A DNA stretch of 64,000 bases, taken from the NCBI RefSeq assembly GCF_900186535.1, contig NZ_FYDE01000004.1:620001-684000 (forward strand). The letters run 5' to 3'. Below the pieces are notes generated by a model that was not told the DNA's origin, did not search any database, and was given only the letters and a program-made list of their open reading frames with translations. Shown one piece after another: positions 17,604 through 58,605 of this stretch. How positions within the stretch are numbered: position 1 is the stretch's first letter; every line of letters starts with the position of its first letter. A program made the position numbers and the translations under genes. This DNA is from Marasmitruncus massiliensis (GTDB lineage Bacteria; Bacillota; Clostridia; Oscillospirales; Ruminococcaceae).

Positions 17604-17660
17604 AAGAACGGATAAAAATTGCGCCTGTAAATTTTACAGGCGCAATTTTTATCTGTTCTT
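17604..17660 (-). terminator. Terminator at the 3' end of sigE
   Basis: A long imperfect hairpin centred near 17632: GCGCCTGTAAA pairs with TTTACAGGCGC and is flanked by complementary AAAAATT/AATTTTT tracts. On the minus strand it ends in a T run right after the sigE stop codon. The A/T flanks would also work on the plus strand. Confidence 0.8.
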
Positions 17661-18369
17661 AAATCGTCTTTTCCAGTTCTTTTTTCAGCTTTTTAATAAT
17701 CCGTTTCTCCAGACGCGATATATAAGACTGGGAAATCCCGATAATATCGGCCACTTCTTTTTGCGTTTTTTCTTCCGTTCCCATAAGGCCGAACCTCAGC
17801 TTCATAATCGTCTGTTCCCGTTCCCCCAGACGGTTTACCGCATTGAGCAGCAAATTTTTTTCCGCTTCATCCTCAATCGGACGATTGATGCTGTCGGCTT
17901 CCGTTCCGAGAATATCCGAAAGCAGCAGTTCGTTTCCATCCCAGTCGATGTTCAAGGGCTCGTCAATTGAGATTTCATTTTTATGGTTCTGATTTTTCCG
18001 CAGATGCATCAGAATCTCATTTTCAATACATCTGGACGCATAGGTAGCTAGTTTAATATTTTTCTGCGGACAGAACGTATTGACGGCTTTAATCAACCCA
18101 ATGGTGCCGATCGAAATTAAATCCTCCACGCAGATGCCGGTGGATTCAAATTTTTTGGCAATGTACACCACCAGCCGCAGATTATGTACGGTCAGCGTTT
18201 CTTTGGCGGACTCGTCGTGCGCTTCCAGCCTGAGAAATACAAGCTTTTCTTCTTCTTTGGAAAGCGGAGCGGGCAGGGTTTCAGGCCCGTTTATGTAAAA
18301 AATCCGTCGGAGCCTCAGCCGCAGGAGCAGACTTTCCAGCAGCAGTTTCCATTTTAGAACCCATTGCAT
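17659..18369 (-). CDS. sigE: RNA polymerase sporulation sigma factor SigE (pro-sigma-E)
   Basis: Directs early mother-cell transcription during sporulation. The 236-residue protein has a basic, hydrophobic pro-sequence (residues 1 to about 28) that SpoIIGA removes. Sigma region 2 follows ([48 protein letters not shown]), then region 4 with a helix-turn-helix ([20 protein letters not shown]). The start at 18369 has a GGGAAAGGGT RBS about 7 nt upstream. It lies 80 bp downstream of spoIIGA, so both are one operon, as in all spore-formers with this module. Confidence 0.96.
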
Positions 18370-18449
18370 TACAAACACCCTTTCCCTTTATGTAAAAATG
18401 CCGTTCATTATTGTTCGGACAAATAGCACTGCGCTTTTCAGGCAGGGGT

Positions 18450-19262
18450 TTATCCGCGGTCAACCAGCTGGGGGTTCAGCAGCGCCTGATATTCCCCATG
18501 AATCGGTTCCCTGCTGGCTGCTATGTAAACATCCGAGGTTCTTGTTTGCAGATTCTCCCCGGAAATCGAAACCTCGTCCGGGCGGAAGCCACGCAAAGCG
18601 CCCTGTCCGGTAACGGTAAAGCAGGGGATCACGCGGTAACGGGTTTCCTCCGAAGGGGCGATGCGGCTCGCAAGCTCTTTATCGCAGACAATGACCGGCG
18701 CGCCGGAAAAAGGCTCTTTCAACTGGCAGCCGGTATCGGCCAGCCCCTTCATGGCAAGTGTTTTGCCGTTTACCATGACCGATACGTTATATAACTTTTT
18801 TTCACTTGTGCGGCTGAACAGCAGCCGTTCAAATAAAAGCAGCAGAAAATAGGCGGCCGTTGTTGTGGCAAGCAGCATAAGCATGGAAATGTCGAAATAG
18901 ACAATACCGTTGTAAAACAGGACATTGAGCGGTTTGATCAGGTAGGAAACCGCAAGCAGAATGCCGGCAAACAGGAAACTGACGGAGAGCAGAACAAACA
19001 GAGACTTGGCCAGCCGTTTCCATGACTGGCAGCCGAAAGCCGCAGCGGCCATCGCGCCCGACAAAAAGATTTTATAAAAGAGCTGGAACCACCATCCGAT
19101 GTAGGGCAGAAAAATAATCAGCGAGCCTGCCGCCCCAAGAAGAGCGGAAAGGCAGGCCCGTTTTCGGCTTAAAATAATGCCTAAAATTTTGCCGGAAGCC
19201 AATATGATCAGAAGATTGATGATATAATTCACCACAACCAGAACATCTGCATAAACTGTCAT
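18450..19262 (-). CDS. spoIIGA: Sigma-E processing peptidase SpoIIGA
   Basis: Membrane aspartic protease that cleaves pro-sigma-E after a signal from the forespore. The N-terminal half (about residues 1-150) contains about five hydrophobic helices. The C-terminal half is the protease domain with the single catalytic motif LADTGCQL (D176-T177-G178), since SpoIIGA acts as a dimer. At 270 residues it is slightly shorter than the roughly 300-residue Bacillus protein. Promoter sequences upstream have the unusual spoIIG architecture (see 19304-19338). Confidence 0.94.
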   Translation of the reverse strand: MTVYADVLVVVNYIINLLIILASGKILGIILSRKRACLSALLGAAGSLIIFLPYIGWWFQLFYKIFLSGAMAAAAFGCQSWKRLAKSLFVLLSVSFLFAGILLAVSYLIKPLNVLFYNGIVYFDISMLMLLATTTAAYFLLLLFERLLFSRTSEKKLYNVSVMVNGKTLAMKGLADTGCQLKEPFSGAPVIVCDKELASRIAPSEETRYRVIPCFTVTGQGALRGFRPDEVSISGENLQTRTSDVYIAASREPIHGEYQALLNPQLVDRG

Positions 19263-19303: not shown

Positions 19304-19338
19304 ATTATAGGAAAGGGACAAGTTTTGTTTGTGTCGAA
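19304..19338 (-). promoter_or_regulatory. spoIIG-type promoter with 22-bp spacer and overlapping 0A box
   Basis: Reading the minus strand: TCGACA (19337-19332, five of six matches to TTGACA), a 22-bp spacer and a perfect TATAAT (19309-19304). The plus strand over the -35 reads TGTCGAA (19332-19338), the exact Spo0A box. In Bacillus subtilis the spoIIG promoter is known for this same 22-bp spacing and for a 0A box overlapping the -35. A weaker box-like TTGCGAA lies at 19360-19366. Confidence 0.75.
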
Positions 19339-19360: not shown

Positions 19361-19391
19361 TGCGAACCTCAAACACACGGCATGCATACTA
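19361..19391 (+). promoter_or_regulatory. Candidate forespore (sigma-F/G) promoter for the Cys-rich gene
   Basis: CATACTA (19385-19391) matches the sigma-G -10 consensus CATnHTA. TGCGAA (19361-19366) is 18 bp upstream and matches the -35 only partly. The site is 72 bp before the Cys-rich gene, and transcription could run on into sigG. Confidence 0.45.
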
Positions 19392-19463
19392 TGAAAAAGA
19401 ACGGCACATGGCGCTGCCGTGTCAGGTATACATTTATTTTTAAGACAAAAGGTGTGATAATTC

Positions 19464-19718
19464 ATGGCTTGCTGTAACAACAGATACTGCAATTACAGAT
19501 GTGCGGTCCCTGGCTGCGGCTCTAAGGAGAATTGCATTAGATGCAAAAACAGCTGGTATCCAATTGTGGACACGGAATCCGTCGAGCGTAGAATGAGGAT
19601 GTGCTGCGATCAGGGTGGCTGCTGCGGAATGTTTCCGGTGGATTGCAGAAATACGTACTGGCCGTCTTTCTCTCACCCCCGTTGGCTCTGCTGCAAAGAT
19701 CTGTATTGCGCGCGTTAA
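19464..19718 (+). CDS. Small cysteine-rich protein of unknown function
   Basis: 84 residues with 15 cysteines (18%), many in CC pairs (for example MACCNNRYCNYRC, MCCDQGGCC and WLCCKDLYC), plus several aromatic and Arg residues. There is no signal peptide or membrane segment. AAAGGTG lies a few bases before ATG 19464. I do not recognise a family. It sits between spoIIGA and sigG behind a forespore-like promoter element, which suggests a role in sporulation, such as a disulfide-cross-linked or metal-binding spore protein; this is inference from context. The frame's unusual composition makes a chance frame unlikely but not impossible. Confidence 0.6.
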   Translation: MACCNNRYCNYRCAVPGCGSKENCIRCKNSWYPIVDTESVERRMRMCCDQGGCCGMFPVDCRNTYWPSFSHPRWLCCKDLYCAR

Positions 19719-19738
19719 AGAACCACGCGTTTGTGAGG

Positions 19739-19774
19739 CACAATAAGCCGGCGGTAAAACGCCGGCTTATTGTG
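19739..19774. terminator. Perfect 15-bp hairpin without T tract, between the Cys-rich gene and sigG
   Basis: CACAATAAGCCGGCG (19739-19753) pairs with 19760-19774 around a GTAAAA loop. No T run follows, so termination may be partial, leaving read-through into sigG. Confidence 0.55.
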
Positions 19775-19836
19775 TGCGCAATGCAAAATCGATGCCGGAT
19801 TCTTTCAATGGGTAATTATTGGAAAGAGCTCGGTTT

Positions 19837-19867
19837 TGCATGTTTGATGATACCCGCGCCCATACTA
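19837..19867 (+). promoter_or_regulatory. Sigma-G-type promoter immediately upstream of sigG
   Basis: TGCATG (19837-19842) contains GCATG, a full match to the sigma-G -35 GYATR. An 18-bp spacer leads to CATACTA (19861-19867), a full match to CATnHTA. The predicted transcript starts about 30 nt before the sigG GTG. Autoregulation by sigma-G is established in Bacillus subtilis. Confidence 0.65.
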
Positions 19868-19903
19868 ATTTCTGAAAAGAAAATAGAAAACGGGGTGCGG
19901 GAC

Positions 19904-20674
19904 GTGTATATCAATAAGGTTGAAATTTGCGGGGTAAATACGTCTAAGCTAAAAGTGCTGAAGGAGAAGGAGAAGATAGAATTACTTCGGCGGATTCGGG
20001 CGGGCGACAATGCCGCCCGAGAGGAAATGATCAACGGAAACCTGCGGCTGGTGCTCTCGGTGGTGCAGAAATTCACAAACCGCGGTGAAAATCTGGACGA
20101 CCTTTTTCAGGTAGGGTGCATCGGGCTGATCAAAGCGATCGACAATTTCGATCCGAACCAGAATGTACGCTTTTCCACCTATGGCGTTCCCATGATTATC
20201 GGTGAAATCCGCCGCCATCTCAGGGATAACAACTCGGTACGTGTCAGCCGTTCCATGAGAGATATGGCTTATAAAGCCATGCAGGCAAAGGAAGCACTTG
20301 TAAACCGCAATGCAAGGGAGCCTACCATCGATGAAATTGCCGAAGAAATGGGTGTTAATAAAGAGAATGTCGTTTTAGCGCTTGAGGCAATTGTGGAGCC
20401 GATGTCGCTTTATGAACCGGTCTATTCGGATGGCGGAGATACCATTTACGTAATGGATCAGGTCGGAGATAAAAACGGCGAAAACGATTGGATGGATGAA
20501 ATCGCAATCCGGGAAGCAATGAAAAATCTGGGGGAACGTGAGAAAAAGATCCTTACTCTGCGTTTTTTTGTTGGTAAAACCCAGATGGAAGTGGCGCAGG
20601 AAATCGGTATTTCGCAGGCGCAGGTGTCCAGATTGGAAAAGGGTGCGCTTGATTGGATCAAAAAACATTTATAA
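19904..20674 (+). CDS. sigG: RNA polymerase sporulation sigma factor SigG
   Basis: Late forespore-specific sigma factor. From GTG 19904 it has 256 residues and begins MYINKVEICGVNTSKLK, the conserved SigG N-terminus (NKVEICGV). Region 2 (NLRLVLSVVQKF, DDLFQVGCIGLIKAIDNFD, FSTYGVPMIIGEIRRHLRD), region 3 and region 4 (EVAQEIGISQAQVSRLEKGAL) are all present. The frame stays open upstream, but those residues are not family-like. Unlike Bacillus, sigG is not downstream of sigE on the same strand but divergent from spoIIGA-sigE. Confidence 0.95.
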   Translation: MYINKVEICGVNTSKLKVLKEKEKIELLRRIRAGDNAAREEMINGNLRLVLSVVQKFTNRGENLDDLFQVGCIGLIKAIDNFDPNQNVRFSTYGVPMIIGEIRRHLRDNNSVRVSRSMRDMAYKAMQAKEALVNRNAREPTIDEIAEEMGVNKENVVLALEAIVEPMSLYEPVYSDGGDTIYVMDQVGDKNGENDWMDEIAIREAMKNLGEREKKILTLRFFVGKTQMEVAQEIGISQAQVSRLEKGALDWIKKHL

Positions 20675-48333: not shown

Positions 48334-49926
48334 ATGTCAATTCTAATTCATTCGATCAGGACATCTATTCAGGAAGACCGGCAGGAAGCGGTGAGAAAAG
48401 CAATCCGTCTGCTCGGGGTGCCGGGGGACGCAGTCAAGTCCGCACATATTGTAAAAACATCGTTGGACGCCCGGAAACGGACGGACGTGCATTTTGTTCA
48501 TTCGGTCTCCGTTTCGCTCGAAGGCGGGGAGCCGGAGACGGTCAACCGTTTTTCGGGAAACCAGGTCTGTCTTCAGGTGGAGCAGCCGCTTGAAGTTGTT
48601 ACCGGCTCGAAGAGACTCGAACACCGCCCGGTTATCGTGGGATTTGGACCTGCCGGCATGTTTGCGGGGCTTCTACTGGCCCGTCAGGGATACCGCCCGC
48701 TGATTTTGGAGCGCGGAAGTGAAATGGACCGGCGGGTTGCTGACGTGGAGCGGTTTTGGAAAACCGGAACCCTGAATTCTCAGAGTAATGTGCAGTTCGG
48801 CGAGGGCGGGGCCGGAACCTTTTCGGATGGGAAGCTGACGACGCGCATCGGGGATTCCAAATGCGGATGGGTTTTAAAGGAGTTTGCCGGATTTGGAGCG
48901 CCCGGGGAAATTCTGTATAAAGCAAAACCCCATATCGGAACCGACCGTCTTCGTGAGGTTGTAAAAAACATCCGGAAGGAAATTATCGCGCTGGGCGGAG
49001 AAGTCAGGTTTGACACGATGCTGTCCGATCTGGAAATCAAAAACGGAAAGCTGGCAGCGGCTGTGACCCCCTCCGAAACCATCCCTGCCGGCGTGCTGAT
49101 TCTGGCAGCCGGACACAGCGCACGTGACACTTTTGAAATGCTGCTCCGCCGGGGGCTCACCATGGAAGCAAAACCGTTTTCGGTGGGGGTCCGCGTGGAA
49201 CATCTGCAGTCGGATATTGACCGGGGGCTGTATGGGGAGCTTGCCGGACATCCCGCATTGCCGGTGGGAGAATATCAGCTCTCCCATCGCATAGGGGAAC
49301 GGGGCGTCTATACCTTCTGCATGTGCCCGGGAGGCTTCGTCGTGCCGTCTGCGTCGGAGCAGGAGATGGTGGTTACCAACGGCATGAGCTGCTATGCGCG
49401 CGACGGAGTAAATGCCAACGCTGACGTAGCCGTTTCTGTGACGCCTTCGGACTTTGGCAGCTCCCCGCTTGACGGCATGCAGTTTCAGCGCAGGCTGGAG
49501 CGCCTCGCGTGGCAGGCCGGGGGACGGTCCTATCAGGCGCCCGCGCAGGATGTCGGCCACTTTCTGGACGGCAAGCCGGGGCTTACAGTCGGAAAAGTGC
49601 GGCCGACCTATCATCTGGGCGTACAGCCCTGTGATTTTAACGCGCTTCTGCCCGCTTTTGTGGCGGATATGCTAAAAGCGGGGCTTTTGTCCTTTGACAG
49701 GAAGCTGAATGGATACGCGGCCCGGGATACGCTGCTGACCGGCGTGGAAACACGTACGTCCTCGCCTGTGCGCATCCTGCGCGGTGAGAATATGCAGTCT
49801 CCTTCCGTTTCGGGCCTCTATCCCTGTGCGGAGGGCGCCGGATATGCCGGCGGTATCATCAGCGCCGCAGTTGACGGAATTCGCTGCGCACTCGCTGTAA
49901 TGGCTGAATATCACCCGATTGCGTAA
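48334..49926 (+). CDS. COG2509-type NAD(P)/FAD-dependent dehydrogenase, unknown substrate
   Basis: 530 residues. An N-terminal domain of about 95 residues (KAIRLLGVPGDAVKSAHIVKTS-like ferredoxin fold) precedes the FAD-binding VIVGFGPAGMFAG (GxGPAG from G103). GEGGAGTFSDGKLTTR is the signature of this uncharacterised group. The C-terminus GLYPCAEGAGYAGGI is the second FAD contact. ATG 48334 has AGAGGA 6 nt upstream. Position after cdaA-cdaR recurs in Clostridia, but no functional link is established. Confidence 0.87.
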   Translation: MSILIHSIRTSIQEDRQEAVRKAIRLLGVPGDAVKSAHIVKTSLDARKRTDVHFVHSVSVSLEGGEPETVNRFSGNQVCLQVEQPLEVVTGSKRLEHRPVIVGFGPAGMFAGLLLARQGYRPLILERGSEMDRRVADVERFWKTGTLNSQSNVQFGEGGAGTFSDGKLTTRIGDSKCGWVLKEFAGFGAPGEILYKAKPHIGTDRLREVVKNIRKEIIALGGEVRFDTMLSDLEIKNGKLAAAVTPSETIPAGVLILAAGHSARDTFEMLLRRGLTMEAKPFSVGVRVEHLQSDIDRGLYGELAGHPALPVGEYQLSHRIGERGVYTFCMCPGGFVVPSASEQEMVVTNGMSCYARDGVNANADVAVSVTPSDFGSSPLDGMQFQRRLERLAWQAGGRSYQAPAQDVGHFLDGKPGLTVGKVRPTYHLGVQPCDFNALLPAFVADMLKAGLLSFDRKLNGYAARDTLLTGVETRTSSPVRILRGENMQSPSVSGLYPCAEGAGYAGGIISAAVDGIRCALAVMAEYHPIA

Positions 49927-49984
49927 CAAAATGCATAAATTTCGCATAATATGGCAGTAAAATTGAGCCTGGGAGGGGTCTGCC

Positions 49985-50680
49985 ATGAAAATCGGAGTTG
50001 CATTTTCCGGCAGCGGCGCGGGGGCGCCCTGGTCACATATCTTTGCAGAGGAGCTCCGTTCCTGTGCGATCCCAATTGCGATGCTGTCCGCGACCTCATT
50101 GACTGCGGTTCCCGTTTTGCTTTGGTCCAAGGGGTGCTCCGATGAGGAAATACAGCTGTGGATGCAGAACATTTTTCAGGACCCCGCGCTTGGGTGCAGA
50201 CAGTTGGCCAAATCGGAACTGATCAAAAGGCCAGACGGATATTCTGTTGCAATCAGTAGTGTGGATATCCTGAGCGGGGTCTCCGTGTTATATTCGGATG
50301 AATTGCAGGCCGACGCCTGGAATCTGAAGGTTCACCCGCTTGCCGGAAACGAGGAATATGCGCTGATGTCCGCTGTCAGCCCTTTTGGCGGGATGGAGCC
50401 GCCGATTGTAGATAAAATGAAACTGTGTGATTTTTCAATGCGTTACGGATGCCCTTTCTTTCCACTGAAAATGGCGGGAATCGAGCGGATTTTATCCGTA
50501 TCGTTTCCCGGAGGGGATATGCCGGTGCAGGCGGCAGGGGATAATATGACAGCGCTGACAGGGCGCAATGCGGACCTCCACTTTTCGATCAAACCGGATT
50601 CTCCGGAACGTGTGGAAACCTATATCCGCTCGTTTGTACAGAACAATATTGGCGCGATCTATCAGAAACTGCTGTTTTAG
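49985..50680 (+). CDS. Degenerate patatin-like protein, function unknown
   Basis: 231 residues, no signal peptide. The opening GVAFSGSGAGAPW corresponds to the patatin oxyanion Gly-rich loop. AMLSATSLTA (S38) lines up with the nucleophile elbow GxSxG, but both glycines are replaced. SPFGGMEPPIVDKMKLCDFSM (D149) lines up with the catalytic-Asp DGG region, here D-F-S. Serine and aspartate may survive while the motifs around them do not. It could be a divergent hydrolase or a pseudoenzyme. The patatin assignment is my reading of the spacing, not a database result. RBS GGGAGGGG precedes ATG 49985. Confidence 0.55.
   Translation: MKIGVAFSGSGAGAPWSHIFAEELRSCAIPIAMLSATSLTAVPVLLWSKGCSDEEIQLWMQNIFQDPALGCRQLAKSELIKRPDGYSVAISSVDILSGVSVLYSDELQADAWNLKVHPLAGNEEYALMSAVSPFGGMEPPIVDKMKLCDFSMRYGCPFFPLKMAGIERILSVSFPGGDMPVQAAGDNMTALTGRNADLHFSIKPDSPERVETYIRSFVQNNIGAIYQKLLF

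Positions 50681-56990: not shown

Positions 56991-58605
<1,615 letters not shown>

Follow-up and report, generated by a model that had tools for sequence, protein, structure and literature searches.

The window, a stretch of 64,000 nucleotides from the Marasmitruncus massiliensis genome (contig NZ_FYDE01000004.1 of assembly GCF_900186535.1, positions 620,001 to 684,000), carries a short gene for a cysteine-rich protein between spoIIGA and sigG. Spore surfaces govern the oxygen survival and the host-to-host passage of anaerobic gut commensals, and the question raised by this locus is what such a protein does and whether it is made in the forespore or in the mother cell.

The cysteine-rich gene and its homologues

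The gene (19464..19718, + strand) is an ORF of 84 aa with an ATG start, supported by homologues and by dN/dS. The product contains 15 Cys, equal to 17.9% of its residues, and 4 CC pairs were counted, in agreement with the first-pass annotation of this DNA, which had described 84 residues, 15 Cys (about 18%) and several CC pairs. A ribosome-binding site, AAAGGTGTGAT (19447..19457, +), precedes the gene and is kept across the genus in the alignment of upstream regions, while a hairpin with a 16-bp stem and without a long T run (19738..19775, +), probably a terminator, follows it; the 82-nt stretch containing the hairpin folds with -39.4 kcal/mol (z -5.4). This hairpin had been noted at first sight, as had the absence of a signal peptide, and both observations were borne out, the latter by inspection by eye, which disclosed no hydrophobic stretch at the N-terminus. 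The window has 191 ORFs of 60 aa or more that start with ATG; the 84-aa ORF has the top Cys fraction of these, and the runner-up has 9.4%. First-order Markov simulation of the window, repeated 20 times, gave 12.4% as the largest Cys fraction in such ORFs, and none of 3930 simulated ORFs combined at least 17% Cys with a length of at least 80 aa.

The protein had been labelled an orphan, a label that did not survive the search for relatives, as homologues were found in all 10 other genomes of the genus (Anaerotruncus), one in each, and in 30 further named loci. The genus genomes include A. colihominis DSM 17241 and A. massiliensis. When 100 genomes were searched with the whole protein, 19 gave matches, namely the own genome, the 10/10 others of the genus, 6/50 other genomes of the family and 2/39 from other families in the order; G022, one of the six from the family, was removed as spurious (E 6e-4; three internal stops). 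Separately, a pattern-plus-tblastn scan of a species-genome collection confirmed as relatives 40 of the 64 candidate stretches that matched WPxF[AST]HP[RTQ]W. These became the named loci, 10 from genus genomes, a set also recovered by the whole-protein search, and 30 from others; because the loci were chosen by pattern, the invariance of its residues among them is partly the result of selection. The titles of the 30 non-genus loci, mostly Oscillospiraceae-type or unresolved Clostridia, include Oscillospiraceae, Ruminococcaceae, Provencibacterium, Candidatus Merdivicinus and uncultured Clostridia, among others. A profile of the conserved C-terminal module described below matched 5/247 genomes of the order and 2/299 of the phylum. 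Of the latter two, one is the own genome; the second match, which is weak and partial (G339; 19 model positions, E 1.7e-4), was left out, and neither WPxFxHPxW nor HPxWL occurs in any frame of the corresponding locus (L082). The family is universal among the genus genomes examined and patchy outside the genus. The co-occurrence of the family with sporulation was uninformative as evidence, since spoIIGA is present in 234/247 genomes of the order.

For pairs of homologues, dN/dS was 0.02–0.46 in 8/12, the pair at 0.02 having a dS above 3, near saturation; the other four pairs were saturated, and both pairs that include the window protein are among these. The gene is real and under purifying selection. 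A lack of any homologue with a conserved Cys pattern, together with a substitution ratio like that of non-coding DNA, had been named in the first-pass annotation as the outcome that would speak against its reading, and this is not what was found.

Protein anatomy and family searches

Alignments divide the protein into an N-terminal part of variable length that carries the Cys runs (19464..19592, +) and a conserved C-terminal module, residues 44–84 (19593..19715, +). In some members the N-terminal runs extend up to CCCCC and CCCCCC. Across the 40 named loci the length spans 63 to 221 aa and the number of Cys 2 to 50, the start codons of the distant homologues having been picked by hand from ribosome-binding sites. 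Cys content is high (9 to 50) in 39/40; the exception is L055, a distant member with just 2 Cys, so that Cys richness is not universal in the family. The core of the module, C-terminal to the variable part, is RN.FWP.F.HPRWLCC.DLY, and its genus form reads R-x-C-x-D-(Q/E)-x-G-x-x-G-x-x-P-x-x-C-R-N-x-(F/Y)-W-P-x-F-x-H-P-R-W-L-C-C-x-D-L-Y-C-A-R.

The AF2 model of the full-length protein was poor (mean pLDDT 59.3), with residues 1–30 below 50. The 41-residue module alone gave a best model with a mean pLDDT of 85.8, a beta hairpin plus a short helix, the other four models being at 74.7–78.6. Foldseek comparison of the full model with the PDB returned 9 matches, all at E 2.3 or worse, and the module model gave no match at E <= 10. 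The sole match of a PDB sequence search, to the Rubisco small chain at E 0.059, was judged to be due to chance. When the 41 members were scanned against Pfam at E <= 0.1, one matched PCSK9_C2 (0.012), which is unrelated, and no other match was obtained; NCBIfam at E <= 0.1 and PHROGs gave none. In particular, none of the 41 matched the families of CotY/CotZ/ExsY, DUF1540 (CdeA), ENA/DUF3992 or metallothioneins in Pfam and NCBIfam, libraries that we take to contain models for them. The earlier statement that no family could be recognised therefore holds for Pfam, NCBIfam, PHROGs and the PDB. Since there is no model in the three libraries, no relative in the PDB and nothing like it among the literature matches listed, these proteins are, as judged from their sequences, an undescribed family within a known functional kind.

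The anatomy bears on the possibility that the protein is a mother-cell metal binder, metallothionein-like or a zinc protein, which would store or deliver metal and have no structural task. The CCxxxxCC spacing, the conserved His, the many Cys and the predicted compactness of the module would suit such a protein. No metal-binding family was matched by any of the 41 members in Pfam or NCBIfam, however, and a Cys number of 2 to 50 among homologues is more easily reconciled with a low-complexity tail that cross-links than with a single defined metal cluster. We consider this reading unlikely, though a metal site could still lie inside the module itself.

Genomic neighbourhood

Between 17659 and 20674 the order in the window is sigE (-), spoIIGA (-), the Cys gene (+) and sigG (+). 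The divergent neighbour spoIIGA (18450..19262, -) was recognised by PF03419 at E 2.4e-57, with NCBIfam TIGR02854 below its cut-off, sigE (17659..18378, -) by NF006158 and TIGR02835 above cut-off, and sigG (19901..20674, +), which has its own CATACTA at 19861-19867, by NF006071 above cut-off. Thus, both neighbours named in the first-pass annotation were confirmed by profile matches. In other genomes the conserved partner is spoIIGA-sigE, which the Cys gene adjoins in 27/40 named loci, divergently in 26 and codirectionally in one (L023). sigG was found in 10/40 named loci, in all ten beyond sigE and never downstream of the Cys gene; the remaining 30 may not extend as far as sigG. As sigG lies beyond sigE in the relatives, its association with the Cys gene is local, and the block of Cys gene, spoIIGA and sigE in the window looks inverted relative to the other loci. 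The search for homologues and for synteny with sigG that had been proposed thus yielded the former and not the latter.

The divergent region also contains TGTCGAA (19332..19338, +), on the spoIIGA side and in a block conserved in the genus upstream alignment. It resembles the consensus Spo0A box, and the exact 7-mer occurs in 13/26 divergent loci and in 1/13 unlinked loci.

Other neighbours occur in 13/40 loci, for example yicC (L041, L047) and phage terminase genes (L030, L032). In the last two, which come from two Provencibacterium genomes, the large terminase subunit stands beside the Cys homologue (L030 3176-4802; L032 3123-4406).

These terminase genes are what would favour a phage-derived gene captured beside sporulation genes, or a peptide product of the RiPP or bacteriocin kind. 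Against it, none of the 41 members had a PHROG match, tblastn of the window protein found nothing in 50,697 phage records, the conserved region is C-terminal and not a leader, and the promoter, described in the next section, is of a sigma-K type. We give this explanation scarcely any credence.

The promoter

The CATACTA that had been proposed as the -10 element is present at 19385-19391. It is part of a putative sigma-K-type promoter, AC-N17-CATACTATG (19366..19393, +), with the -35 AC at 19366-19367 and the -10 CATACTATG at 19385-19393, a layout conserved in the genus and in distant homologues and equal to that of dpaA. The aligned genus site reads (A/G)C-N17-CATAnnAT(A/G), with AC in 8/11 genes and GC in 3/11; the -10 is CATACAAT in 5/11, CATAGGAT in 3/11 and CATACTAT in 3/11, the window being among the last. 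At the aligned promoter, CATACTA is therefore present in three of the eleven, namely the window, L028 and L029, and the remaining eight have CATACAAT or CATAGGAT.

The 200-bp upstream regions contain the strict form AC-N17-CATAnnAT(A/G) in 9/11 genus genes (the match of L023 is off-site) and in 15/30 distant ones, where 200 dinucleotide shuffles gave means of 0.01 and 0.03, respectively. For a looser form the counts are 11/11 and 22/30 (shuffle means 0.27 and 0.46), so that 8/30 distant loci lack the looser and 15/30 the strict motif. Because the motif came from dpaA and the genus sequences, the distant loci are an independent test, in a set that includes some close pairs. Among 24 distant CATAnnAT(A/G) sites, AC lies exactly 17 bp upstream in 15, and at any other spacing from 8 to 27 in at most 2; ATA is upstream in at most 1/24 at each spacing from 8 to 25. 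ATA was seen at spacing 19 in 5/13 genus sites, a distance that corresponds neither to that of the SASP genes nor to the short one of sigma-E. Over 400 bp of the other strand, 1/26 linked loci have the strict motif and 3/26 the looser one. The own genome contains 46 strict matches vs 44 for the reversed pattern; as there is no genome-wide excess, a single occurrence is not evidence, and just conservation is.

Of the loci unlinked to spoIIGA, 9/13 retain the looser form, and 7/13 the strict one, so the motif is not a by-product of the linkage. This bears on the reading in which the protein is a small regulator of SpoIIGA or of the pro-sigma-E step, held beside its target by divergent linkage. 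The divergent arrangement in 26/40 named loci is what one would expect of it, but the linkage is absent in 13/40, nine of them with the promoter motif, and expression with sigma-K-type timing would follow the action of sigma-E. Low-complexity Cys runs are also unusual in regulators, and the module profile matches 5/247 genomes of the order vs 234/247 for spoIIGA. We hold this to be very improbable.

The strict motif occurs three times in the window (0.5 expected; 1/100 shuffles reached as many), upstream of the Cys gene, of a collagen-like gene and of an ORF at 49985. The collagen-like gene (56991..58400, -; PF01391, E 2e-40) encodes a BclA-type protein of 469 aa that is Cys-rich at its N-terminus, and 65 bp upstream of the gene lies AC-N17-CATAGAATG (58466-58493, -). 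By virtue of this shared motif it is a second candidate spore-surface gene. The third occurrence (49926-49953, +) is 31 bp before the ORF 49985-50680, which has no Pfam match.

Comparison with promoters of known classes

In C. difficile, excerpts of one study give sigma-E and sigma-K a -10 in common and a different -35, ATA for sigma-E vs AC for sigma-K, and assign bclA1-3, dpaA and several cot genes to the regulon of sigma-K (PMC3789822). For B. subtilis, the excerpted paper, with its own element definitions, puts the optimal gap at 12 bp for sigma-E and at 15 bp for sigma-K (PMC517825). The dpaA genes of the genus, identified as TIGR02853 matches that all fall below the curated cut-off, have AC-N17-CATA(GG or AG)AT(A/G) in 11/11. 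In 9/9 SASP genes of the genus, for which control by sigma-G is expected, ATACTA is preceded by ATA at spacing 17; 6/9 read CATACTA. Of the other calibrators, spoIIIAA, for sigma-E, has by eye a CATA- or AATA-like -10 and a different upstream element. spoIVA was unusable for sigma-E, because most of its upstream stretch belongs to the gene before it. yabG, termed part of a sporulation signature in an excerpt of PMC10681294, failed for sigma-K, as PF05582 was unmatched at E <= 1e-10 in 11/11 genus genomes.

These comparisons weigh on the claim that the protein belongs to the forespore. A forespore or spore-core protein under sigma-G would be a Cys-rich metal or redox buffer in the core. It would account for the -10 of the window, L028 and L029, CATACTA as in 6/9 SASP genes (ATACTA in 9/9), and sigG is the gene downstream in the window. 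Yet the sigma-G-type ATA at spacing 17, seen in 9/9 SASP promoters, occurs in 0/11 Cys-gene promoters, and 8/11 of these are without ATACTA; in the relatives sigG is beyond sigE wherever it was found (10/10). A sigma-G promoter was thus rejected by comparison with the SASP genes of the genus, and the layout of the Cys-gene promoter appears to be that of dpaA and not of the forespore sigma-G type. The forespore assignment was not supported, and we regard a core protein as distinctly unlikely.

Last, spoIVA of the own genome, outside the window (G000:C2:445076-451735; L158:1577-8236), is split into two parts, which cover model residues 1–404 and 399–492 and are separated by about 5.2 kb. Between them are genes for a large serine recombinase (Resolvase/Recombinase domains), an IlvD/Edd dehydratase and an SBF-family transporter. 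The gene is broken at about the same place in G007 and G010, with the pieces on different contigs, the first part alone was found in G008, and spoIVA is whole in 7/11 genus genomes. With its metabolic cargo, the insert is reminiscent of the skin-type elements of sigK. Among the literature matches listed, none concerns, by title, such an element in spoIVA; those present concern gerE, yabG, sigK and spsM, among others.

Discussion

The Cys-rich protein probably belongs to the coat or exosporium as a structural component. It would be produced at a late stage in the mother cell through sigma-K-dependent transcription, and would have a module that docks and a Cys-run tail that cross-links through disulfides. 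Conservation, purifying selection, the modular anatomy, the architecture of the promoter and the linkage to spoIIGA-sigE are shown here; the use of sigma-K, the location, the docking and the cross-linking we infer. The gene would be transcribed alone, late and in the mother cell, its promoter inside the divergent spoIIGA intergenic region being used by sigma-K RNA polymerase. The module, consisting of the CCDxxGCC hairpin and RNxFWPxFxHPRWLCCxDLY, would fold and dock the protein into the layer, and the variable N-terminal segment with its CC runs would form disulfide cross-links between adjacent subunits while the shell matures. The product would thus be specific to this lineage and part of an outer layer of the spore, either the coat or the exosporium. 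The collagen-like gene of the window, which carries the same motif, is in keeping with this reading. Points weighed against it are the lack of a genome-wide excess of the strict pattern, the distant loci that lack the motif, the GC in 3/11 genus genes and the ATA at spacing 19 in 5/13 genus sites, the terminase neighbours in L030 and L032, the 2 Cys of L055 and the sub-cut-off scores of the dpaA calibrators; the genus is also anaerobic, which counts against it as to when the disulfides would form. The spore-specific, Cys-cross-linking component foreseen in the first-pass annotation is, in this respect, probably correct, and its placement in the forespore is unsupported.

We put forward with less confidence, and somewhat short of an even chance, that the family is a new spore-surface scaffold of gut Oscillospirales. 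A small new fold, made of the CCDxxGCC hairpin, WPxFxHPxWL and an LY helix, would dock on the spore and carry a freely expanding Cys-run tail; the protein would do in this lineage the job of CdeC, CsxA and ExsY, and descent would account for the position of its gene next to spoIIGA-sigE. Being conserved and unnamed, and having a promoter of the late mother-cell type together with a short motif of diagnostic value, the family offers a testable handle on the spore shell, applicable to a large group of commensals with culturable type strains.

Comparison with known Cys-rich spore proteins

The coat or exosporium reading has precedents: CsxA, ExsY, CotY and CdeC form assemblies that, in the excerpts available, are at least partly disulfide-stabilised, and mutually unrelated Cys-rich proteins build disulfide-stabilised exosporium layers elsewhere (PMC7333573, PMC7677010). 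The described Cys-rich spore proteins among the literature matches listed, seen in excerpt, are from Clostridioides, Clostridium and Bacillus, and none from the order of the window genome is named there. The authors of the CsxA study propose, in the excerpted text, that unrelated Cys-rich proteins tile the spore surfaces of many spore formers (PMC7333573).

ExsY, CotY and CotZ of the Bacillus exosporium and crust are Cys-rich and form disulfide-stabilised arrays, according to excerpts of the same papers (PMC7333573, PMC7677010), which is like the role proposed here, but 0/41 members match such a family in Pfam or NCBIfam. CdeA (DUF1540) is, in excerpt, a small Cys-rich spore protein with conserved Cys, as is proposed here (PMC7677010); nevertheless, 0/41 members have a DUF1540 match in Pfam. 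CsxA, the exosporium lattice protein of C. sporogenes, shares the Cys richness (PMC7333573, excerpt). According to the excerpt, csxA is flanked by zapA and a gene for a U32 peptidase and has collagen-like genes in its vicinity, whereas the Cys gene is divergent from spoIIGA and the collagen-like gene of the window is about 37 kb off. CdeC and CdeM of the C. difficile exosporium are likewise Cys-rich proteins of the spore surface, and both multimerise, CdeC with a redox-dependent self-assembly (PMC7677010, excerpt). In a comparison made via library models, no Pfam or NCBIfam model links these two or CsxA to the 41 members, and what distinguishes the family described here is its short conserved C-terminal module combined with a variable, Cys-run N-terminus.
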